This document shows positions 3,937-22,344 of a stretch of DNA of 42,870 bases, one piece after another. The DNA comes from an uncultured Pelagibacteraceae bacterium (GTDB lineage Bacteria; Pseudomonadota; Alphaproteobacteria; Pelagibacterales; Pelagibacteraceae), in assembly GCA_902539235.1 (NCBI GenBank), contig CACBIC010000007.1, positions 1 to 42,870 on the forward strand. The letters run 5' to 3'. Numbering within the stretch: position 1 is the stretch's first letter; every line of letters starts with the position of its first letter. Both the position numbers and the translations under genes were made by a program. The notes under the pieces were generated by a model. That model was not told the DNA's origin. It saw nothing but the letters and a program-made list of their open reading frames with translations, and did not search any database.

Positions 3937-4401
3937 ATGTTTTTATCAAGTTACGAAAACAAATTAGACAAGAAAGGTCGTGTATCTGTGCCAGCTTCTT
4001 TTAGATCACATTTGAGTTCAATGGGATATAACGGTTTTATTAGCTATCCATCCTTTAACCATGATGCACTCGAGGCTTGTTCTCAAGATAGAATTGAAAA
4101 ACTATCTAATACAATTGATACATTAAATCCATTTGAAGAAAAAAGAGATTACTTCGCTACATCAGTTTTATCTGAAAGTGAAAATTTACAATTTGATACA
4201 GAAGGAAGAGTCTTGATACCAGAAAAATTACTAAACCATGCTAAAATCAAGAGTGTCGTATTATTTGTTGGATTAGGAAAGACATTTCAAATTTGGGAAC
4301 CTAAAAACTTCAATAAATTTAAATCAATTGCTAGAAAAAAAGCTTTTCAAAATAGATCTAATTTAAAATGGGAAAATAAACAGAAAGGGGATGGATCATG
4401 A
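3937..4401 (+). CDS. mraZ: Transcriptional regulator MraZ
   Basis: AbrB-fold DNA-binding protein that in other bacteria represses the dcw operon. It carries two SpoVT/AbrB-like half-repeats, seen as LDKKGRVSVPASFR (about residues 9-22) and DTEGRVLIPEKLL (about 88-100). Length of 154 aa is typical. The ATG at 3937 gives the family-typical MF start; no good ribosome-binding site stands before it, although a GGAGGG lies at 3890-3895, about 45 bases upstream. Its own operator boxes overlap the promoter. The last bases overlap the ftsZ start as ATGA (4398-4401), so ftsZ translation is probably coupled to mraZ. Confidence 0.95.
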   Translation: MFLSSYENKLDKKGRVSVPASFRSHLSSMGYNGFISYPSFNHDALEACSQDRIEKLSNTIDTLNPFEEKRDYFATSVLSESENLQFDTEGRVLIPEKLLNHAKIKSVVLFVGLGKTFQIWEPKNFNKFKSIARKKAFQNRSNLKWENKQKGDGS

Positions 4402-5903
4402 GTATAAATGTTGGTGGTGGTGAGTTAAGAGAATTAAAACCTAGAATATTAGTAATTGGAGTTGGAGGAGCTGGCGGAAATGCAATTAATGCAATGATAG
4501 AGGCAGGTATGCAAGGAGTAGAATTTGTTGCAGTAAACACTGATGCACAAGACCTTAAAATGAGTAAAGCTGATGCAAAAATCCAAATTGGAATGAATCT
4601 AACTAAAGGTCTTGGAGCTGGTGCAAAGCATGATATTGGGCAAGCGGCAGCAGATGAGTCAATTAATGAAATTATAAATTATATTCAAGGAAGCAATATG
4701 GTTTTCATTGCGTCAGGAATGGGAGGAGGAACTGGCACTGGAGCTTCTCATGTTATCGCAAAAGCTGCGAGAGAAATGAATATCTTAACCGTAGGTGTAA
4801 CAACATTACCTTTTGCTTATGAAGGGCCTAAAAGAATGAGAAGAGCAACAGCAGGTTTGGAAGAATTAAAAAAACACTTAGATACTACTATAGTTGTTCC
4901 TAATCAAAATCTTTTCAAAATCGCTAATGAGGCAACAGGCTTTGAGGAGTCATTCAGCCTTTCTAATGATGTATTAAAACATGGAGTTCAAAGTATCACA
5001 GATTTAATGGTAAGACCTGGGATGATAAATCTTGATTTTGCAGATGTTGAAACAGTTATGAGTTCTAGCGGTAAAGCTATGATGGGAACAGGGGAAGCAG
5101 ATGGAGATAACAGAGCCATGGCAGCTACTGAATTAGCATTAAATAATCCTCTTATCGATGAGTATACACTCCAGGGAGCAAAAGGTTTACTGGTAAATAT
5201 TACTGGTGGAAGTGATATTAAACTTTTTGAAGTTGATGCAGCAGTTAATAAAATAAGAGCAGAAGTAGATCCTGAAGCCGAATTAATCTTTGGTGCGATT
5301 AAGGATGAAAATATGAATGGCAAAATTAGAGTTTCTATTGTTGCAACTTCCTTAAAAGGTTCTACGATTTACTCTGAAGGAAAACCAGTCCTTAATGTTG
5401 TTAATGGGTCAAGTAATAGAAATAACAATATTTCAGAAAATTTATTTTCTAAAAATAATATTGAACAAAATATTGTAAACTCAATAGACGGTGCAACAGC
5501 CCTAAAGTTAGACGAGACTTATGAAATTAAAAACAATGAGGAACAGAATGCTCTTATTGAAAATTTTGAGAGCGAAGAGGAAAGCAAAATAGCAGAACAA
5601 ACATCTGCTGTTTCTACATCACCTGATGAAATTCCAGCTGGAGTTTCAATTGAAAGCGCTTCCTATATGGAACACAATGATGATACTAATTATGAAGATA
5701 CACTTCATCAAAATAACTCTTCAAATGAAAAAAACTTTATTGAAGAGTTTACACCTAAACTTTTTTCAGATGAACAAAATCAAGTTGAGGGTGAAACAAA
5801 AGATGTAAGCGAAGAAAATGCTACTCATCAACTTTTAGATCAGGATACTAACGAAGACGAAGACTTCGAAATACCTGCATTTTTAAGAAGACAAAAGTTT
5901 TAA
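4398..5903 (+). CDS. ftsZ: Cell division GTPase FtsZ
   Basis: Tubulin-like GTPase that polymerises into the Z-ring. Seen: N-terminal glycine motif GVGGAGGNAIN (about 21-31), the GTP signature GGGTGTG (109-115), the T7-loop NLDFADV (about 213) that completes the neighbour's GTPase site, an acidic, low-complexity linker of about 160 residues (320-485), and a C-terminal peptide EIPAFLRRQ (about 491-499) that binds FtsA/ZipA-type partners. The 501-residue length is explained by the long linker, common in alphaproteobacteria. Position is odd: it directly follows mraZ with a 4-bp ATGA overlap instead of following ftsA. rsmH follows after 18 bp. Confidence 0.98.
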   Translation: MSINVGGGELRELKPRILVIGVGGAGGNAINAMIEAGMQGVEFVAVNTDAQDLKMSKADAKIQIGMNLTKGLGAGAKHDIGQAAADESINEIINYIQGSNMVFIASGMGGGTGTGASHVIAKAAREMNILTVGVTTLPFAYEGPKRMRRATAGLEELKKHLDTTIVVPNQNLFKIANEATGFEESFSLSNDVLKHGVQSITDLMVRPGMINLDFADVETVMSSSGKAMMGTGEADGDNRAMAATELALNNPLIDEYTLQGAKGLLVNITGGSDIKLFEVDAAVNKIRAEVDPEAELIFGAIKDENMNGKIRVSIVATSLKGSTIYSEGKPVLNVVNGSSNRNNNISENLFSKNNIEQNIVNSIDGATALKLDETYEIKNNEEQNALIENFESEEESKIAEQTSAVSTSPDEIPAGVSIESASYMEHNDDTNYEDTLHQNNSSNEKNFIEEFTPKLFSDEQNQVEGETKDVSEENATHQLLDQDTNEDEDFEIPAFLRRQKF

Positions 5904-5921
5904 TGCCTATTTTTAAAATCA

Positions 5922-6932
5922 ATGAACACTCTAACCTCATCACTGGAATTTTCCCATTTTCCGGTGATGTTGAGTGAAATCATTCAAATCGCCTCTCCAG
6001 AAAAAGGTGGTCTTTTTATCGATTGTACTTTTGGCGGAGGAAGCTATTCAAATGCATTGCTAAAATTTCCAAAGACTAAAGTAATAGGCATTGATAGAGA
6101 TGAAGCTGTTATCTCAAGAGCAAATGAACTACAAAAAAAATATCAAAAAAGGTTTAAATTTTATCAAATTAAATTTAGTGAATTAGATAAGATCTTAAAT
6201 AAAAACGCAGATACAATTATTTTTGATTTAGGCCTATCTTCTATTCAACTTAAAAATTTAAACAGAGGTTTTTCATTTAAATCAAAAAATAAATTAGATA
6301 TGGCAATGGGTCTTAATAATATTTCTGCACAAGAAGCAGTTAATAATTTAAGCGAAAAACAATTAAAATTAATCATTAAAATTCTAGGTGAGGAAACTGA
6401 AGCATCTAATATCGCAAAAAATATAATTAAAGCAAGGTCTGAAAAAAAAATCACTAAAGTAAACGAGCTGGTTAAAATTATTGAAAAGAGTAAAAAAAAA
6501 AAATTTTCATCAAAAATCAATCCAAGTACCAAAACTTTTCAAGCTTTGAGAATATATGTAAACAAAGAAATTTCTGAACTAATTAATGGTATTACTAAAG
6601 CTACTAAAATACTCAAACCTGGTGGTAAACTTGTGATAGTAAGTTTTCATTCAATTGAAGATAAAATTGTTAAATATTTTTTTAATAACTTCTCAAAAAA
6701 TAGATCAAATCCATCAAGGTATTTACCAGAAGATAATAATACAGCCTGTTTTCTTTTTGAAAAATATAACAAAAAAGTGATTAAACCTTCATCTCATGAA
6801 ATAAAAATTAATAATCCTTCACGATCTGCTAAATTGAGATTTGCTATAAGAAGCAAAAATCAATTCTTGTTTCCCAAAAATCTTTTTAAAAAATTTAGTT
6901 ATTATTTAGATATAGAAGGAGTTGATGCTTAA
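5922..6932 (+). CDS. rsmH: 16S rRNA (cytosine-1402-N4)-methyltransferase
   Basis: RsmH (MraW) methylates N4 of C1402 in 16S rRNA using S-adenosylmethionine. Seen: HFPVMLSE at the N-terminus, the SAM-binding DCTFGGGSYS (about residues 37-46) and GIDRD, NADTIIFDLGLSSIQL, the RGFSFK segment and the C-terminal SFHSIEDKIVKYFF and NPSRSAKLR. Length of 336 aa is typical. ATG at 5922 starts 18 bp after ftsZ. In most dcw clusters it directly follows mraZ; here ftsZ separates them. Its stop overlaps the start region of ftsL. Confidence 0.96.
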   Translation: MNTLTSSLEFSHFPVMLSEIIQIASPEKGGLFIDCTFGGGSYSNALLKFPKTKVIGIDRDEAVISRANELQKKYQKRFKFYQIKFSELDKILNKNADTIIFDLGLSSIQLKNLNRGFSFKSKNKLDMAMGLNNISAQEAVNNLSEKQLKLIIKILGEETEASNIAKNIIKARSEKKITKVNELVKIIEKSKKKKFSSKINPSTKTFQALRIYVNKEISELINGITKATKILKPGGKLVIVSFHSIEDKIVKYFFNNFSKNRSNPSRYLPEDNNTACFLFEKYNKKVIKPSSHEIKINNPSRSAKLRFAIRSKNQFLFPKNLFKKFSYYLDIEGVDA

Positions 6933-7263
6933 AATAAAATTTTTAATTTCTATATTTGTTTTTTCATCTTTATTAATTGTAACATCAGTTATAAAGAATC
7001 AAACAAGAGAAATTGAAAAAAAAATTTATAATTTAAGAAATATTATTCTTACTAAAGAAAAAGATTTTAGTGAGTCTCAACTTGATTTTTTCTATTTAAC
7101 ATCGCCCTTTATGATTGAGAAAAAAATAAATCATTTAGACAATCATAATTATATTATTATGGAATATTCAAAAATTTTTCTAAGTATGAGCGACTACATG
7201 AATCTAGACACTAAATACGCCATCCAAGAGATTGAAAATGAAAAAAAAACAAAAAAAAGATAA
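6925..7263 (+). CDS. ftsL: FtsL-like cell division protein
   Basis: Small bitopic protein assigned by position between rsmH and ftsI and by shape. It has one N-terminal membrane segment (about residues 4-22, KFLISIFVFSSLLIVTSVI), then a lysine/glutamate-rich coiled-coil-like periplasmic stretch (QTREIEKKIYNLRNIILTKEK). FtsL normally pairs with FtsB and recruits and activates FtsWI at the septum. ATG at 6925 is preferred to TTG at 6922; AGAAGGAG lies just upstream. It overlaps both neighbours, supporting co-translation. FtsL is poorly conserved, so the call rests mainly on context. Confidence 0.85.
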   Translation: MLKIKFLISIFVFSSLLIVTSVIKNQTREIEKKIYNLRNIILTKEKDFSESQLDFFYLTSPFMIEKKINHLDNHNYIIMEYSKIFLSMSDYMNLDTKYAIQEIENEKKTKKR

Positions 7264-8965
7264 ATATTATAATAAAAATCAAACTAGCTTCTTCTTTGAA
7301 GATTACTTAGAAACTAATAAAAAAAATAAATCTTTAGAAAAAAAAAACATATTACAGGATAGAATTTATCTGTTATTTTTTTTATTTTTTTCTCTGATTT
7401 TAATTTTTACCGTAAGAATTATTCATGTTTCTTTAAATAAAATTGAGATTTATAATAATGAAAGTTTCTCTAAAAAATTTTCTTTATTGAGAAGGGATAT
7501 AGTGGATAGAAATGGTGAAATTATTTCAAGAAATATTAAATCATACCATGCAGCAGTAAATCCAAATTTAATTAATAATAAAGAAAATTTTCTGATAAAA
7601 TTACAATTAAATTTTCCTGAGCTACAAATTAAAGAAATTAAAAAAAAATTAGACAGTGGTAAGTATTTCTATTTGAAAAAACGTATTAGTCATGATGAAA
7701 AAGAAAAATTATGGAGTTTCGGTGAAAAAGGTGTAATCTTTGAGTCCTTTCAGTCAAGAGTGTATACTCATTCAAATTTATTTAGTCACGTGATCGGCCA
7801 AGTTGATTACGATAATTACGGCATCTCGGGCATAGAGAAATATTTTGATAAAGAACTTAAAGATAAAAATTTATCAAAGCAGCCGTTAGAATTAACTTTA
7901 GATACAAATATTCAGTATTTGATAAGCAAAGAGCTTAACGATGCCTTGATTACTTTTAATGCTAAAGGTGGTGGCTCACTACTTATGGATGTAAATAATG
8001 GAGAAATTTTATCATTAGTATCACTCCCAAATTTCGACATTAATGAAAGGGCTACTGTAAAAGATGAAAAATATATTAACAAAATTACTAAAGGTGTCTA
8101 TGAGCTAGGTTCAATTTTTAAAACTTTTACAGTTGCACTTGCCTTAGAGAATAACCTTGTCAAACCCAAAACGATTGTAAATAATATCACAAAATCAATT
8201 AAGTGCTCAAAGCATGAAATTTCTGACATAAAAGAATTTCCTAAAAGCTTATCAGTTGAAGATATATTAATTAGATCATCAAATATTGGAACTTTACTTA
8301 TTGCAAGAAAAATAGGAGAGGAAAAATATAAACAATTTTTAAAAAACTCAGAATTATTAAAAAGTCCTAATATACAATTAGAGGAAGTAGGTAGACCATT
8401 AAAATTTGACTGGAACAAATGTAAATTAGAAACGGTTTCCTATGGTCACGGTATTGCTACAACCCCTTTACAGGCTCTCACAGTATATGCAGCATTAACA
8501 AATGGTGGAGCTATAATTAAACCAAACCTAATCAAAACAAAAAAAAATAATAATTATGGAAGATTAATTTCAAAAAAAACTAGCGATGATATAAATAAAA
8601 TTTTGCGTAAGATTGTTACTGATGAGGATGGAACAGCCAGTTTAGCTGACGCATATGGGTATAATGTTGGAGGCAAAACAGGAACTTCACAAAATTATAA
8701 TAATAAAAGTGAAAATTTAAACACTTTTATATCTGTATTTCCGTCACACAAACCTAAATATGCTTTATTAGTAATGTTAGAAAACCCCCAGGTCGCAAAA
8801 AACTTAATTTACGATTATAGAGGAATGAAAATAAAAGGTACCAGAAACGAGGCTGGATGGAACTCAGTTTATGTTGCTGGCCAAATAATAAAAAAAATTG
8901 GACCAATTTTAGCCATAAAGAGTAAAGATTTTAATCACCAGTATGTTGTTGAAAAAATTAATTAA
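7238..8965 (+). CDS. ftsI: Septal peptidoglycan transpeptidase FtsI (PBP3)
   Basis: Class B penicillin-binding protein that crosslinks septal murein as partner of FtsW. Seen: a basic cytoplasmic N-terminus, one membrane segment (about residues 45-65), the dimerisation-domain LLRRDIVDRNGEI, then transpeptidase motifs SIFK (SxxK, nucleophile Ser near residue 291), SSN (SxN, near 346) and KTGT (near 478). Length of 575 aa is family-typical. ATG at 7238 is chosen over TTG at 7232, and the start lies inside the end of ftsL. The 3' end overlaps the murE-murF start by 23 bp. Confidence 0.96.
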   Translation: MKKKQKKDKYYNKNQTSFFFEDYLETNKKNKSLEKKNILQDRIYLLFFLFFSLILIFTVRIIHVSLNKIEIYNNESFSKKFSLLRRDIVDRNGEIISRNIKSYHAAVNPNLINNKENFLIKLQLNFPELQIKEIKKKLDSGKYFYLKKRISHDEKEKLWSFGEKGVIFESFQSRVYTHSNLFSHVIGQVDYDNYGISGIEKYFDKELKDKNLSKQPLELTLDTNIQYLISKELNDALITFNAKGGGSLLMDVNNGEILSLVSLPNFDINERATVKDEKYINKITKGVYELGSIFKTFTVALALENNLVKPKTIVNNITKSIKCSKHEISDIKEFPKSLSVEDILIRSSNIGTLLIARKIGEEKYKQFLKNSELLKSPNIQLEEVGRPLKFDWNKCKLETVSYGHGIATTPLQALTVYAALTNGGAIIKPNLIKTKKNNNYGRLISKKTSDDINKILRKIVTDEDGTASLADAYGYNVGGKTGTSQNYNNKSENLNTFISVFPSHKPKYALLVMLENPQVAKNLIYDYRGMKIKGTRNEAGWNSVYVAGQIIKKIGPILAIKSKDFNHQYVVEKIN

Positions 8966-11705
8966 ACATATTCCGATTAAGAATAAAAAAATTAATATAA
9001 AAGGTCTAGCTATTAATAGTAAAAAAATTAAAAAAGGTTACATTTTTTTTGCTATTAAAGGTTTAAAGTCCAACGGTGAAAAATATATAGGTGAAGCTGT
9101 TAAAAAAGGGGCTTCAGTAATTATTTGTTCACGAAAATGTAAATATAAAAATGAAAAAATTCCAATTATTAAAACTTCAAATATAAGAAATTATTTAAGT
9201 CAAATTGCGTCTAAATTCTTTCAATTAAAACCAAAAAATATAATAGCTGTTACCGGTACAAACGGTAAAACCTCTGTAGCAGATTTATTTTACCAAATTC
9301 TAAGTTTGAATAATATTCCAGTAGCTTCAATAGGAACATTAGGTTTGAAATATAAAAGGAAAACTATTAAATCAAATTTGACATCTCCTGATACAATTTT
9401 ACTTCATCAAGATCTAGAGAAAATAAAAAAAAATAAAATAGATAACGTTATTATTGAAGCCTCAAGCCACGGCCTTCATCAAAGCAGAATAAATAATTTA
9501 AAACTTAAGGCCGGAATTTTTACAAATTTTAGCCAGGATCATCTCGATTACCATAAAACTATGAAATCATATTTAAATTCAAAATTTATCCTTTTCAAAA
9601 ATATTCTATCAAAAGGAAAAACAATAATTTCTGATAAGACTATTAAAGAGTTTGAGTTTTTGAAAAAGATCGCAAAGAGAAGAAAGTTGAAAATTATAGA
9701 TGTTAGTGTCTTAAATAAAAGAGTATCAAAAACCAAAAATTTAAAATTAAATGAATTTCAGTCAAAAAATCTATCAATGGCGATAGCTGCTGCTAAATTT
9801 TGTAACTTAAACGAGAAAAAAATATTCAATTCTTTAAAAAAAATAAAAGATGTCAGCGGAAGATTAGAGTTGGTAAGAGTCTTCTCTAATAATATCAAAG
9901 TGTATGTTGACTTTGCACATACACCAGACGCTTTAAAAAAAACCTTAAAAGCTTTACGAGATTTGTATGGTGATAATATTTCTATTGTTTTTGGATGCGG
10001 AGGCGATCGAGACTTTAAAAAAAGACCAATTATGGCAAAAATAGTCAATTCACATTGTAAAAAAATTTATATTACTGACGACAACCCAAGAAATGAAAAT
10101 CCTTATAGAATTAGGAAAACAATTTTCAAGTATATAAAAGATAAGGATTGTTTCAACATTGGAAATAGATCAAAAGCTATCCATTCCGCAATTATAAATG
10201 CAGAGCCTAATGACGTTATTCTAATTGCAGGTAAAGGACATGAGACAGAACAAATTTATAAAAATCGAGTAATAAAAATCTCAGACAAACAGATTATTAA
10301 AAGACTAAATAGTAAAATAAAAAAAATATCTATTAGCCAACAAAATTACTTACAAAATCAAAAAATTCTGAGTGAGATTAAAAGTAATTTCAAAGTACAA
10401 AACTTTCATGGAATATCAATAGACACAAGAATGTTAAAAAAGGATAATCTTTTTTTAACAATCAAAGGAAAAAATAATAACGGAGCAAAATTTGTAAAAA
10501 AAGCACTAAAAAAAGGTGCTAAATATATTGTTTCTTCCCAAAATATTAAAAAACAAAAAAACAAAACTATAAAAGTTAAAAATGAAATTAAATTTTTGAA
10601 CAAGTATGCATACAAAAAGAGAGAAAAGACTCAGGCTAAAATAATTGCTGTTACCGGAAGCGCAGGTAAAACTTCTCTAAAAAATTTGATTAAAGATTTG
10701 TTAAATGATTTTGGAAAAACTTTAAGCTCTCCTAAATCTTATAATAATCATTTTGGTGTTCCATTGAGTTTATCTCAATTAAAGATAGAACATAAATTTG
10801 GAGTTTTTGAAGTAGGAATGAGTAAAAAAGGAGAAATAGATAAGCTCACTAAACTAATTAGGCCCCACTTCGGAATAATAACTAATATTGGTGAAGCACA
10901 TATTGAAAATTTTAAAAATTTGCATGGTATTGCAGATGCAAAAGGAGAAATAATTCAAAATATAGAAAAAGGAGGTACTATAATTTTAAATAGAGATGAT
11001 AAGTATTTTACGAATCTTGAAAAAAAAGCCAAAAAGAACAATTTAAAGATTGTTACGTTCGGAATAAATATAAAATCTAATGTTCAACTTGTTTCAAAAT
11101 CCAAAAAAAGAGACCATGAATTACTTACTATTAAAATAAAAGAGAAAATTTTGAAAGTTAAAATTAAAAACATTAATTTTTATAATGTTTTATCCTCCTT
11201 AGCTTTATTAGATGAATTAAATTTAAATCTAAATGCAATAATAAATAATTTTAAAAATTATGAACCATCAGAGGGAAGGGGAAAAATTCATAATATAAAA
11301 AGATACAAAAAAAATTTTAAACTTATTGATGAAAGTTATAATGCAAATCCAATTTCAGTTAAAAATGCGATCCAGAAATTAGGTTCAATTAAAAAACAAA
11401 AGTTTAAAAAATACCTATTACTTGGTGATATGCTTGAATTAGGTCAAAAATCTGAAACTTTGCATAAAAATCTGTCAAAAGTTATTAACAATTCAGATAT
11501 CGATAAAGTGTTCATAAAGGGTAACAAAACTCTCACCACCTATAGAAATATTCATAAAGAGAAAAGGGGAAACATTTTCCAAGAAGAGGAAGATGTAGAT
11601 TTTACTTTAAATAAAATTATAGCTAATAATGATTACTTAATGATTAAAGGATCAAATGCAACTAACTTAAATAATTTAAGCAAAAGGATGATAAAAGGTA
11701 TTTAA
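8943..11705 (+). CDS. murE/murF: MurE-MurF fusion: two successive Mur ligases
   Basis: One uninterrupted 920-residue frame carries two Mur ligases. MurE part (about 1-455): ATP site VTGTNGKTS (near 104), SPDTILLHQDL, EASSHGLHQSR, and DNPRNENP (near 380), the motif of meso-diaminopimelate-specific MurE. MurF part (about 475-920): SIDTRMLKKDNLFLTIKG at its N-domain, ATP site VTGSAGKTS (near 571), SYNNHFGVPLSL, and YNANPISVKNAI. The two add meso-DAP and then D-Ala-D-Ala to the UDP-MurNAc peptide. The linker is short and lysine/glutamine-rich (about 455-475). The genes are normally separate neighbours in this order, so the fusion is a deletion of the intergenic boundary. mraY follows at once. Confidence 0.96.
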   Translation: MLLKKLIKHIPIKNKKINIKGLAINSKKIKKGYIFFAIKGLKSNGEKYIGEAVKKGASVIICSRKCKYKNEKIPIIKTSNIRNYLSQIASKFFQLKPKNIIAVTGTNGKTSVADLFYQILSLNNIPVASIGTLGLKYKRKTIKSNLTSPDTILLHQDLEKIKKNKIDNVIIEASSHGLHQSRINNLKLKAGIFTNFSQDHLDYHKTMKSYLNSKFILFKNILSKGKTIISDKTIKEFEFLKKIAKRRKLKIIDVSVLNKRVSKTKNLKLNEFQSKNLSMAIAAAKFCNLNEKKIFNSLKKIKDVSGRLELVRVFSNNIKVYVDFAHTPDALKKTLKALRDLYGDNISIVFGCGGDRDFKKRPIMAKIVNSHCKKIYITDDNPRNENPYRIRKTIFKYIKDKDCFNIGNRSKAIHSAIINAEPNDVILIAGKGHETEQIYKNRVIKISDKQIIKRLNSKIKKISISQQNYLQNQKILSEIKSNFKVQNFHGISIDTRMLKKDNLFLTIKGKNNNGAKFVKKALKKGAKYIVSSQNIKKQKNKTIKVKNEIKFLNKYAYKKREKTQAKIIAVTGSAGKTSLKNLIKDLLNDFGKTLSSPKSYNNHFGVPLSLSQLKIEHKFGVFEVGMSKKGEIDKLTKLIRPHFGIITNIGEAHIENFKNLHGIADAKGEIIQNIEKGGTIILNRDDKYFTNLEKKAKKNNLKIVTFGINIKSNVQLVSKSKKRDHELLTIKIKEKILKVKIKNINFYNVLSSLALLDELNLNLNAIINNFKNYEPSEGRGKIHNIKRYKKNFKLIDESYNANPISVKNAIQKLGSIKKQKFKKYLLLGDMLELGQKSETLHKNLSKVINNSDIDKVFIKGNKTLTTYRNIHKEKRGNIFQEEEDVDFTLNKIIANNDYLMIKGSNATNLNNLSKRMIKGI

Positions 11706-18566: not shown

Positions 18567-19497
18567 AAAAAAATTTAAAAAAGTTTTGGTAGTTTTAGGA
18601 GGAACCTCTGGTGAAAGAGCAATAAGTTTAGCAAGTGGAAGAGCTTGTATTAAAGCTTTAAAAAGTAAAAGATATAAAGTTTCGTCATTTGATCCAAAAA
18701 AAAAAAATTTTAATTTAATAGATAAAAAAAAAATTGATGTAATTTTTAATGCTCTTCATGGAAAAGGCGGTGAAGATGGAGTAGCACAAAGCTACTTTGA
18801 ATATTTGGGCATTCCTTATACGCATTCTGGAGTTGTAAGCTCATTTAATTCAATGAATAAACTTATTTCTAAGCAAATATTTCTGAAAAAAAAAATTCTA
18901 ACACCTAAACATTTTTCAATAAATGGTCATGATTATAAAATTTCTACTCTTAGAGAGATAATAAAAAAAAAAAATATAAAATTTCCTATAGTTGTTAAAC
19001 CAGTCAACGAGGGGTCTAGCCTTGGCGTCAATATTTGTAAAAACTTTAAAAGCTTAATTTCATCTTCAAAAAAGCTGTTCAAAAAATATGAAAAAATTAT
19101 ATTTGAAAAATATATCCCAGGTCAGGAAATTCAAGTTGCAATTATTAATAACAAAGCTCTTGGCGCAATTGAATTGATTCCTAAAAGAGCATTTTATGAT
19201 TATAAAGCCAAGTATACCAAAGGAGCAAAAACAAAACATGTAATGCCGGCAAGGCTTACAAAAAAAAATTATAATGAAGTTCTTAGAATCTCAAAACTAG
19301 CACACAATGCATTAGGGTGTAGAGGAGTTTCAAGGTCAGATTTTAAGTTTTATAACAATAAGTTTTATCTGTTAGAGCTTAATACACAACCAGGTATGAC
19401 CAATCTTTCCTTGGTACCTGAAATAGCAAATTATTGTGGAATAAATTTTTCAAATTTAGTTGAGCAAATATTATTAGATGCTAGCATCAATAGATGA
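18559..19497 (+). CDS. ddl: D-alanine--D-alanine ligase
   Basis: ATP-grasp enzyme making the D-Ala-D-Ala dipeptide used by the MurF domain. Seen: LGGTSGERAISLASG near the N-terminus, NALHGKGGEDGVAQ, VVKPVNEGSSLGV, the EKYIPGQEIQVA strand, and LELNTQPGMTNLSLVPEIA with metal ligands. GTG at 18559 is taken as the start: it yields the overlap GTGAGTAA with the murB stop and places the first beta-strand (KVLVVLGG) normally, whereas the upstream TTG would add residues encoded within murB. About 312 aa. Ends 4 bp into ftsQ. Confidence 0.95.
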   Translation: MSKKKFKKVLVVLGGTSGERAISLASGRACIKALKSKRYKVSSFDPKKKNFNLIDKKKIDVIFNALHGKGGEDGVAQSYFEYLGIPYTHSGVVSSFNSMNKLISKQIFLKKKILTPKHFSINGHDYKISTLREIIKKKNIKFPIVVKPVNEGSSLGVNICKNFKSLISSSKKLFKKYEKIIFEKYIPGQEIQVAIINNKALGAIELIPKRAFYDYKAKYTKGAKTKHVMPARLTKKNYNEVLRISKLAHNALGCRGVSRSDFKFYNNKFYLLELNTQPGMTNLSLVPEIANYCGINFSNLVEQILLDASINR

Positions 19498-20153
19498 AAA
19501 AACGATTTTTAATCGGTTTATTATTGCTGCTGCTATTAAGTACTTATAGCTCAAAAAATAGTATCAACAATCAATACAAATTAAACATCAAAGAAATTAT
19601 TGTAGCAAATAATAATATTTTAAAAAAAAAGGAAGTAAAAGAAGAATTTTCTTTTTTATACAATCAAAACATTTTCTTATTAAATGATAAAACTATTGCT
19701 CAAAATTTGAGTAAAAAAAGTTTTATAGAAAGCTTTAAGATAAAAAAAATATATCCAGATAAAATTAAAATTATTGTTTTTGAAAAACAACCAATTGCTA
19801 TTTTACAAAATAAAAAAGAAAAGTATTACTACACTAATAAGAATGAAATTATAGAATTTTCGAATTTAAGAGAATTTCAGAATTTACCAATAGTTTTTTC
19901 CGATAAAGAAAACTTCAAAATTTTTTACATTGATTTAAAAAAAATAGAATTTCCTTTAGATATTATTAAGTCTCTACAATTTTTTAAATCTCAAAGATGG
20001 GATATTATTACAAGAAAAGATCAAACAATTAAACTTCCAACAAGTGAATATAAAAAAAGCTTAAGAAATTTTTTGGAGATAAAAAATAAAGATAATTTTA
20101 ACAGATATAAAATTTTTGATTATAGAATTAAGGATCAACTTATTTTAAGATAA
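19494..20153 (+). CDS. ftsQ: FtsQ-like cell division protein
   Basis: Bitopic divisome protein that links early and late division proteins through the FtsQBL complex. Seen: one N-terminal membrane segment (about residues 4-17, RFLIGLLLLLLLST), then a POTRA-like domain (KLNIKEIIVANNNIL to KIIVFEKQPIA) followed by the FtsQ domain with KEKYYYTNKNEII. At 219 aa it is on the short side and has almost no cytoplasmic tail. ATG at 19494 overlaps the ddl stop as ATGA. Sequence is divergent; position between ddl and ftsA supports the call. Confidence 0.9.
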   Translation: MKKRFLIGLLLLLLLSTYSSKNSINNQYKLNIKEIIVANNNILKKKEVKEEFSFLYNQNIFLLNDKTIAQNLSKKSFIESFKIKKIYPDKIKIIVFEKQPIAILQNKKEKYYYTNKNEIIEFSNLREFQNLPIVFSDKENFKIFYIDLKKIEFPLDIIKSLQFFKSQRWDIITRKDQTIKLPTSEYKKSLRNFLEIKNKDNFNRYKIFDYRIKDQLILR

Positions 20154-20156
20154 AAT

Positions 20157-21353
20157 ATGTCCCAAAATAATTTTAAATTATTTGTAGAAGTAGATGAGAG
20201 AAGATTTACATTTACTGTTATAGACTCTGAAAATAAAGAAGATATAAAAATTGCTCACACAAATCAAACAACAGTTACAGGAGTTATCGAAAACAAAATT
20301 ACAGACCCTAATGTAGTTTATGATATTTTAAAAACAAATACTTTTGAAATTGAGAGAAAGTTAAATTGTGTTTTTAAGGAGGCAATCTTAATTTTGGATA
20401 GTTTTAATTCTTCAATTATAAATCTTTCTGGTTACAAAAAATTAAATGGATCACAACTTACAAAAGAAGATATAACTTTTATCTTGAATTCTTTAAAATC
20501 TGAAATTTACGAAAAAGAGAGTCAAAAATCTACTATTCATATTTTTAATTCTAATTATCATCTAGACAAAAAAAAAATAAACAATCTACCTATAGGTTTA
20601 TTTGGAAATTTTTATTCACAAGAACTTTCTTTTTATCTAATTGATAATAATGATTTGAAAAATTATAATAATATTTTTAATAAATGTAATTTAAGTATTA
20701 GTAAAATAATTTCAAAAAGTTTTTTGGAAGGTGTAAATTTAATTAACCAAAATTCAAATTTAGACTCATTCTTTAATATAGAAATTAATGAATTTGACTC
20801 TAAAATATTTTTATTTGAAAACTCTGCATTAAAATTTATACAAAATTTTAAATTTGGAAGTAATCTTATCGAGAAAGATATATCCAAGGTACTTGCGCTT
20901 AACATTGAAAATGTGAAAAGAATTTTAAGAGATACGCAATTCACTTCAGGAGAAATAAATGAGCAGTTCATCGAAGAGGAATTTTTTAAAAATCAAAATT
21001 TTAGAAAAATAAAAAAAAAACTTATACTAGAAATTGCTGCAGCAAGAATTCAAGAAATTTCAAATATAATCATCTTTAAAAATATAAATCTCATAAGATT
21101 TTTAGATTATCAATTTCCAATTTTTTTAAAAATTAAAGATGTTACAAACCTTAAATGTTTTGAGGAGCATTATAAATTATTCTTTTCGTATAGAAATAAT
21201 TATGAATTACATTTCAAAGAAGATATAACTATTGATAGAATCTATCATGGACTTTTTAAACTTGTTCAATATGGGTGGAAAAGAGAAGCAGTGCCAGTTA
21301 TTCATGAAAAAAAGTCATTAATTGGAAGATTTTTTGATCTCATATTTAATTAA
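20157..21353 (+). CDS. ftsA: Divergent FtsA-like protein lacking nucleotide-site motifs
   Basis: Assigned to FtsA (actin-like Z-ring membrane anchor) by position after ftsQ and by the core stretch FIQNFKFGSNLIEKDISK (about residues 227-244), which matches the family's GG-x-x-(I/L)T-x-DIA region, followed by a C-terminal amphipathic helix KSLIGRFFDLIFN (386-398) like FtsA's membrane-targeting sequence. Unusual: the phosphate-1 loop is VEVDERRFTF, phosphate-2, normally a glycine-rich DIGGGT, reads FNIEINEFDSKIFLF (206-220), and the adenosine-side TGGGA is missing (INLIRFLDYQFP). So ATP binding is probably lost. Length (398 aa) and frame are intact, so it is not an ordinary pseudogene. ftsZ does not follow it. 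Confidence 0.83.
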   Translation: MSQNNFKLFVEVDERRFTFTVIDSENKEDIKIAHTNQTTVTGVIENKITDPNVVYDILKTNTFEIERKLNCVFKEAILILDSFNSSIINLSGYKKLNGSQLTKEDITFILNSLKSEIYEKESQKSTIHIFNSNYHLDKKKINNLPIGLFGNFYSQELSFYLIDNNDLKNYNNIFNKCNLSISKIISKSFLEGVNLINQNSNLDSFFNIEINEFDSKIFLFENSALKFIQNFKFGSNLIEKDISKVLALNIENVKRILRDTQFTSGEINEQFIEEEFFKNQNFRKIKKKLILEIAAARIQEISNIIIFKNINLIRFLDYQFPIFLKIKDVTNLKCFEEHYKLFFSYRNNYELHFKEDITIDRIYHGLFKLVQYGWKREAVPVIHEKKSLIGRFFDLIFN

Positions 21354-21417: not shown

Positions 21418-22344
21418 ATGTCAAAAATTTATCAAAACTCTATAAAAAATGTAGTTACATTTAATGGTACTGGTTTACACTCTGGTAAAAATACTAATGT
21501 TAAATTAATACCCGCTGCAGAGAATGAAGGTATCAATTTCAAAAGAATAGATTTTAATGAAAATAATATAATCAAAGCAGATTATAAAAACGTATCCTCA
21601 GCTACTCTTTGTACAACTCTTAAAAATAGATTTGGTAGAAAAGTTTCTACAGTAGAACATTTACTTGCTGCACTTTATATTTGCGGCATTGATAATGTGA
21701 CTATAGAAACTGATAATGAGGAAATTCCAATTTTAGATGGATCATCTAAAGAATTTATCAATATTTTGAAAAATGCAGATATCAAAAAACAAGACACAAG
21801 AAAAAAATATTTAAAAATTTTAAATAGAATTGAATATCAAGATAAAGATAAAAAAATATCAATTGAACCTAGCTCATCTTTTGAAATAGATTTTGAGTTG
21901 AACTATAGTAATAAGGTAATAGGCAATCAGAGAAATAAAATTAATTTCACAAAAGACAATTTGGAAAACTTAATCGAATCGAGAACTTTCTGTTTGTTCG
22001 AAGATATTGAAAAAATAAAAAATATTGGTTTAGCAAAGGGTGGATCACTGGACAATGCTATTGTTGTTAAAGATGAAAAAATTTTAAATGTAAATGGGTT
22101 AAGAAACAAAAAAGAATTTGTAAATCATAAAATTTTAGATTTAGCAGGGGACTTCATCTTAGCTGGTTATAATATTTTAGGCAAGGTTGAGTGCTATAAA
22201 GGTGGACATGAATTTTCAAATTTATTTATAAGAGAAATTTTGGAAAAAAATAAACACAATTTTGAAATTATCGAATTTAAAGAAAAAGATACAAAAAAAA
22301 TTTCACAAAAAGGTTATTTCACAGGACTTGCTGTAAACGCTTAA
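21418..22344 (+). CDS. lpxC: UDP-3-O-acyl-GlcNAc deacetylase LpxC
   Basis: Zinc enzyme of the first committed step of lipid A synthesis. Seen: the GTGLHSGK start of the fold (about residues 18-25), STVEHLLAAL with the first zinc His, PILDGSS, and late motifs KILDLAGDFILAG (zinc His/Asp from HKILD) and YKGGHEFSN (catalytic His). Length of 308 aa is typical. In many alphaproteobacteria it follows ftsZ; here it follows ftsA because ftsZ has moved. It probably has its own promoter in the 64-bp gap. Presence implies an LPS-type outer membrane. Confidence 0.96.
   Translation: MSKIYQNSIKNVVTFNGTGLHSGKNTNVKLIPAAENEGINFKRIDFNENNIIKADYKNVSSATLCTTLKNRFGRKVSTVEHLLAALYICGIDNVTIETDNEEIPILDGSSKEFINILKNADIKKQDTRKKYLKILNRIEYQDKDKKISIEPSSSFEIDFELNYSNKVIGNQRNKINFTKDNLENLIESRTFCLFEDIEKIKNIGLAKGGSLDNAIVVKDEKILNVNGLRNKKEFVNHKILDLAGDFILAGYNILGKVECYKGGHEFSNLFIREILEKNKHNFEIIEFKEKDTKKISQKGYFTGLAVNA

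Follow-up and report, generated by a model that had tools for sequence, protein, structure and literature searches.

An FtsA orthologue of a SAR11 genus without recognisable ATP motifs, a candidate nucleotide-independent tether of FtsZ

The ftsA locus and the identity of its product

The window, meaning the whole stretch of 42,870 nucleotides that was analysed, belongs to contig CACBIC010000007.1 of an uncultured Pelagibacteraceae bacterium (assembly GCA_902539235.1), and its features of interest are listed in Table 1. The genes follow the order ftsQ-ftsA-lpxC, lpxC taking the slot held by ftsZ in most of the alphaproteobacterial controls, which are the 30 best-scoring among 289 genomes of the class and, being chosen in this way, overstate uniformity. 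A 113-aa frame at the place of ftsL had no Pfam or NCBIfam match, and further downstream a 920-aa MurE-MurF fusion occupies a single frame, with murE at residues 17-455 and murF at residues 493-912, each above its cut-off; the bifunctional MurE/MurF model PRK11929 matched the fusion under its cut-off.

Table 1. Genes, motif counterparts and candidate functional residues in the window
Feature	Positions	Strand	Remarks
mraZ	3937..4401	+	upstream of ftsZ
ftsZ	4398..5903	+	sole ftsZ found in own genome; between mraZ and mraW
FtsZ C-terminal peptide	5868..5900	+	EIPAFLRRQKF, FtsZ residues 491-501; presumed FtsA-binding tail
mraW (rsmH)	5922..6932	+	downstream of ftsZ
frame at ftsL's place	6922..7263	+	113 aa
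murE-murF fusion	8943..11705	+	920 aa, single frame
ftsQ	19494..20153	+	POTRA_1; upstream neighbour of ftsA
ftsA orthologue	20157..21353	+	398 aa, ATG start, uninterrupted to stop; ATP motifs not recognisable
phosphate-1 (P1) counterpart	20181..20210	+	residues 9-18, FVEVDERRFT; acidic E11 retained, Gly gone
E11 (E. coli E14 position)	20187..20189	+	proposed partner of K187
domain 1C (SHS2)	20400..20639	+	conservation above random columns in genus
K187 (E. coli A188 position)	20715..20717	+	beside Mg2+ in E. coli FtsA
phosphate-2 (P2) counterpart	20769..20798	+	residues 205-214, FFNIEINEFD in place of VCVVDIGGGT
GSNLIEKDI	20856..20882	+	residues 234-242; retained stretch, not P2
R297..E300 (E. 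coli R300/E303)	21045..21056	+	putative FtsZ-tail docking residues
adenosine motif counterpart	21120..21149	+	residues 322-331, IFLKIKDVTN in place of IVLTGGAAQ
C-terminal amphipathic helix	21318..21347	+	residues 388-397; pLDDT 45-57 in last two blocks
lpxC	21418..22344	+	TIGR00325 above cut-off; downstream neighbour of ftsA

The ftsA product was matched by the FtsA model TIGR01174 with an E-value of 5.5e-21 over model positions 14-301 of 371, at a score of 75.1 bits that does not reach the curated equivalog threshold of 175.85, and the Pfam SHS2_FTSA and FtsA models each matched it below their cut-offs. Its top match among solved structures was E. coli FtsA (7q6d, E 7.7e-7) and the profile of the genus matched FtsA alone in the PDB (best E 2.6e-17), while the PilM model TIGR01175 gave an E-value of 0.058 and 12.4 bits against a cut-off of 133. 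By homology the window protein is assigned to FtsA, though as a remote member with a weak score, in agreement with the original prediction that the gene sits at ftsA's position. It is FtsA by descent, yet it misses two of the tested defining features, namely the ATP motifs and the curated score.

Structure prediction with AlphaFold2, using the window protein and 79 relatives as input, gave a model with a pLDDT of 87.9 and a pTM of 0.84. When this model was submitted to Foldseek, rows 1-19 were FtsA entries (one of them, 3wt0, bears the title 'Cell Division Protein' only) and PilM came next, so that FtsA structures rank first, as the identity proposed at the outset implied. In VIA-align the first 11 rows were FtsA entries throughout, with Z scores between 24.1 and 22.0, versus 18.1 for PilM. 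The rmsd was 5 to 7 Å over about 350 residues and domain angles may therefore differ from the crystal forms. The FtsA fold, including domain 1C, is thus predicted to be kept. PilM, the actin-like protein of type IV pili, shares the actin fold with 1C and is the next-best structural match, but it has been solved in ATP- and ADP-bound forms, and the window protein lies far below the PilM cut-off.

A second FtsA was rejected as an explanation, since none was found in the own genome (808 kb, 71% complete), where the only other weak match to the FtsA family was a 641-aa DnaK-like protein. In two genome sets no member of the genus had a match above the FtsA family cut-off; the genomes with such a match (3 and 38 in the respective sets) all belonged to other genera or to a second family, f2. 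The single window protein as query in a scan of genome contigs retrieved no relative. All 80 relatives kept of 125 in named genomes were Pelagibacteraceae, Pelagibacterales or Candidatus Pelagibacter, and FtsAs of the genus were 34-56% identical to the window protein, bar one relative at 91%. The relatives within the window's genus include HIMB058, assigned to SAR11 clade II in a passage of PMC4771312, from which we infer that the genus is, or includes, clade II, the order name Pelagibacterales being drawn from the relatives in the same way.

An ftsZ match was obtained in 21 of 25 SAR11-order genomes, on ftsA's contig in 17 of these 21 and then 14-17 kb upstream. It is adjoined by mraZ in 22/22 loci and by mraW in 21/22, and the mraZ-ftsZ-mraW order (3937-6932, + strand, in the window) occurs in both sampled families of the order. 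None of the SAR11-order patterns listed, at most six per group, has ftsZ near ftsA within the retrieved stretches; in at least 24 of the 30 controls it lies within 200 bases downstream of ftsA. From these neighbour patterns, whose labels place overlapping upstream genes downstream, only the ftsZ and lpxC entries were taken. The relocation of ftsZ is real and order-wide, and not particular to the window's lineage. Because it also occurs in genera whose P1 and adenosine motifs are kept, it is independent of the loss of the ATP site, and a tie between the two was rejected. The suggestion that the ftsZ move signals a rebuilt mode of Z-ring anchoring is accordingly not supported, the presumed FtsA-FtsZ interface residues being unchanged as well. 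One SAR11-family genome (G417, 2% contamination) carries two different ftsZ genes (L260 and L273), which points to either a paralogue or a contaminant.

Loss of the ATP motifs across the SAR11 order

For the comparison with E. coli, 211 distinct FtsAs were aligned, obtained from 246 loci after merging identical proteins; a containment filter added 24 rows to a later, larger row set, and one truncated row (L080) was left out of the counts over 93, 110 and 121 rows. The window FtsA does not match the DxG, DxGGGT and GG(A/G) nucleotide loops of actin-fold ATPases. The P2 glycine G214 (E. coli numbering throughout) was present in 30/30 alphaproteobacterial controls versus 0/181 SAR11-order rows. 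The P1 glycine G16 was found in 2/94 rows of the window's genus, g1 (2/110 with more rows), in 0/4 rows of its sister genus g229 (1/11 once rows were added), in 1/40 rows of f2 and in 41/42 rows of nine other SAR11 genera. The adenosine glycine G336 was absent from all 94 genus rows, one of them truncated, and from all 110 of the larger set; it was likewise missing in g229 (0/4, then 0/11) and g234 (0/1), whereas f2 has it in 40/40 rows and the nine other genera in 41/42. The FtsAs of these other genera and of f2 are therefore like that of the window in lacking G214 throughout and in having ftsZ beside mraZ, and unlike it in that the nine genera keep both the P1 and adenosine glycines, whereas f2 keeps the adenosine glycine and has no Lys at position 188.

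By alignment, all three ATP motifs are indeed unrecognisable, as first read from the window, and the loss is common to orthologues throughout the genus and not peculiar to the own genome; that reading has to be amended for the P1 acid, since E11 remains and its position (E14 in E. coli) is still acidic in 84/93 genus rows and 101/110 with more rows. A core stretch resembling GG-x-T-x-DI had also been described as kept. The stretch concerned, FGSNLIEKDI (residues 233-242), is retained, with its Gly and Asp in 93/93 full-length genus rows, but it aligns with YAGNVVTSDI of E. coli and is not the P2 motif.

Conservation of the motif columns was then compared with that of random column sets in the genus, the nine other genera, f2 and the alphaproteobacterial controls. 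For P1, P2 and adenosine columns respectively, 0.61, 0.86 and 0.97 of the random sets were equally or more conserved in the genus, against 0.04, 0.05 and 0.00 in the controls, 0.006, 0.003 and 0.002 in the nine other genera, and 0.05, 0.15 and 0.001 in f2, where P2 is not above background. No disguised pocket shows in the genus, as its motif columns are conserved no better than random ones. An ATP pocket that persists in unrecognisable residues, with divergent binding of ATP or some other nucleotide, is consequently unlikely, the more so as the adenosine Gly is gone from every genus row and a basic residue occupies the position beside Mg2+. Such a pocket would agree with the P1 and P2 hairpins, which are still strand-turn-strand in the AlphaFold2 model, with the P1 acid, retained as a genuine Mg2+ site would retain it, with the nine SAR11 genera whose columns stay conserved despite an altered P2, and with the FtsAs of other alphaproteobacteria that exceed the family cut-off and likewise lack GGGT.

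The latter are among the low-scoring FtsAs of other alphaproteobacterial families, for which 15 of 20 picks had a match: GGGT was read at P2 in 0/15, and five of the 15 nonetheless scored above the family cut-off. The P2 change alone is therefore weak evidence and not unusual. The mark of the clade is instead the combined loss of the P1, P2 and adenosine glycines, to which only one of the 15, from genome G137, came near. In this 600-kb alphaproteobacterial genome the P1, P2 and R300 regions of FtsA (L285) are nearly all unrecognisable, so that FtsA may have decayed independently in this reduced genome.

Two other causes of the motif loss were rejected. Drift in base composition does not account for it, since MreB of the same genus has all three motifs intact in 8/8 genus genomes (from MreB-type matches) and the DnaK-like protein of the own genome has P1 and P2 intact; an assembly artefact does not either, since the loss is found in 94 distinct genus proteins from many separate assemblies. 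In an FtsZ tree, whose very long E. coli branch led us to rely on this grouping only, g1 and g229 were joined with support of 100/99, and in an FtsA tree (58 of 121 rows, arbitrary root) g229 falls among the genus rows. Because the FtsZ tree joins the two genera, one shared P1/adenosine loss can explain both, and the glycine losses of g234 and f2 are separate from it. By parsimony the loss was stepwise, the P2 glycines having gone before the split of the sampled families and those of P1 and the adenosine motif thereafter, in the common ancestor of g1 and g229.

Retained interfaces, selection and a probable role in tethering FtsZ

The E. coli residues R300 and E303, which we take to dock the FtsZ tail in subdomain 2B, a role reportedly described by Szwedziak in 2012 and by Pichoff and Lutkenhaus in 2007, have their equivalents in 110/110 full-length genus rows and in 11/11 rows of g229. 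R300 is missing in 10 of the 15 low-scoring alphaproteobacterial FtsAs. A literature search on R300/R300E returned no relevant paper on the docking role; indirect support comes from passages of PMC4281207, which place FtsZ binding in strands S12-S13 of FtsA subdomain 2B, and from the FtsA:FtsZ(336-351) complex (PDB 4a2a), which was among the Foldseek matches. Conservation in the genus does not exceed background for the surrounding stretch, E. coli 297-307 (0.14 of random sets equally or more conserved), or for the whole of subdomain 2B (0.38), and only the R297 and E300 positions are invariant. In the window the FtsZ tail reads EIPAFLR(R/K)Q, as it does in 20 of 22 other loci, the remaining two being an EIPSFLRRQ, with S for A, and a tail that runs off its contig. 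At the other end of the presumed bridge, the best hydrophobic moment in the tail of the window FtsA is 0.68, and the genus mean is 0.69 versus 0.44 for internal stretches; the tail helix is amphipathic, as had been noted at the outset, and a predicted membrane anchor.

SepF and ZipA tether FtsZ by its tail without ATP and have folds unrelated to FtsA; they share the presumed job of the window FtsA. In 61 genus genomes, 4 of them at least 90% complete, neither SepF nor ZipA was found, control matches being 7/14 and 1/14 respectively.

Domain 1C, for which 0/5000 random sets were as conserved in the genus, is the reverse of the alphaproteobacterial controls (0.98), and this, together with the unremarkable conservation of subdomain 2B, would suit a protein that has taken up a new job, for example binding late division proteins only through 1C, with FtsZ tethering lost. 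With R300/E303 equivalents in every full-length genus row, a conserved FtsZ tail and no SepF or ZipA found as replacement, such a change of function is quite improbable.

Selection on the gene points to maintenance. An ftsA match at E <= 1e-30 was obtained in 117 of 169 genus genomes and in 14/14 of those at least 90% complete, and no internal stop was present in any listed match of the 117, nine of which are fragments lying at the end of a contig. Compared with the 91% identical relative, the gene has a dN/dS of 0.34 (NG86; bootstrap 0.19-0.59, 0/500 at 1 or more), above the 0.05 to 0.20 of four compared neighbour genes. By these values the remainder of FtsA, outside its dismantled actin-type nucleotide site, is under purifying selection, and the full-length frame was rightly ascribed to selection. 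That the gene is instead decaying, FtsA having become dispensable through streamlining and FtsZ being carried by some other tether, is very improbable given the uninterrupted frames, the bootstrap range and the retention of 1C, R297/E300 and the tail, even with the low identity within the genus, a dN/dS exceeding that of the neighbours and the nearly stripped FtsA of G137 in its favour.

The window gene is an ftsA orthologue, probably turned into a nucleotide-independent adaptor between FtsZ and the membrane, with the predicted fold kept and the loops of the cleft lost, and the conservation of the docking residues, together with the FtsZ tail and the membrane helix, agrees with the proposed nucleotide-free tethering of FtsZ. 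In this adaptor, subdomain 2B would grip the C-terminal peptide of FtsZ through R297/E300, the C-terminal amphipathic helix would insert in the membrane, domain 1C would touch FtsA or late division proteins, and the Mg-ATP cleft would be without its phosphate and adenosine loops. The retained P1 acid counts against it. From homology, the predicted fold, the motif loss and the retained docking residues, tail and 1C, which the analysis shows, we infer three things, that no ATP is bound, that FtsZ is still tethered and that this protein is the main tether. Most likely it works like FtsA as a tether, minus FtsA as an ATPase. Like canonical FtsA (E. coli, T. maritima, V. maritimus), it follows ftsQ, has the predicted fold with 1C, the docking Arg/Glu and the C-terminal amphipathic helix, and was found in one copy; unlike it, it has neither P1, P2 nor adenosine motif, scores less than half the curated cut-off, carries a Lys at the A188 position and does not have ftsZ adjacent. 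As far as these residues tell, the changed trait seems to be nucleotide control, the presumed FtsA-FtsZ interface residues being unchanged.

The role of ATP in FtsA is a long-standing question. Passages of PMC5832921 state that ATP binding is required for polymerisation and membrane attachment of S. pneumoniae FtsA, and passages of PMC10213515 that ATP-site substitutions abolish function in E. coli FtsA. Titles and abstract openings retrieved for SAR11 or Pelagibacter FtsA and for nucleotide-free or divergent FtsA held nothing on loss of the ATP site. A clade without the ATP site but with the other interfaces offers a natural experiment in which the nucleotide cycle and tethering come apart, and a sequence of losses is suggested by the series over SAR11 genera. 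Division in this branch of the abundant SAR11 bacteria may run without a step presumed to control it elsewhere. According to a passage of PMC9589681, clade II accounted for about 25% of SAR11 in an ocean survey.

A possible charge pair at the former Mg2+ position

Since E. coli ATP-site mutants fail to complement, an inactive site would be expected to carry a cost in the absence of compensation. In the relevant passages of PMC10213515, E14 and A188 of E. coli FtsA lie 2-8 Å from Mg2+, the E14R, S84L, A188V and D210A proteins do not complement, and the E14R and S84L proteins remain on membranes without ATP. Of the 93 genus rows, 88 carry D, N or E at position 84. Position 188 has a base in 94% of the genus, against 5% for the other nine genera, and in no alphaproteobacterial control; Lys at 188 is absent from the nine other genera and f2, with two Arg in the other genera. 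Two alignment methods concur on the register of positions 14 and 188.

Over the 121 rows of g1 and g229, the residues at 14/188 were E/K in 104, D/K in four, E/R in two and K/D in two, giving opposite charges in 112/121 rows, with the polarity swapped in two. Spanning the former Mg2+ position, a salt bridge between E11 and K187 would shut the cleft as a structural pin replacing ATP. That this bridge holds the cleft closed in place of ATP is a tentative proposal, somewhat less probable than its contrary, and it rests mainly on one clade, because five of the six rows without a base at 188 share a single seven-row clade. The 2x2 test of 14 against 188 gave a p of 2e-4, which overstates the association, one or two events being enough to account for it when the rows lacking the base are so clustered. 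Position 14 is the top covarying partner of column 188, but the pair ranks only 1879 of 77028 (z 2.3), and 188 is not among the six best partners listed for column 14.

The full proposal, in which clade II FtsA is nucleotide-free and the E11-K187 bridge, swapped in one subclade, locks it as an always-'on' sole tether of FtsZ, is doubtful; were it true, a group abundant worldwide would anchor its Z-ring independently of the ATP cycle of FtsA. In five rows the acid at 14 is lost while the base at 188 is kept, and these include the 91% identical relative of the window protein (L078, the same protein as L092), which has Gly at 14.
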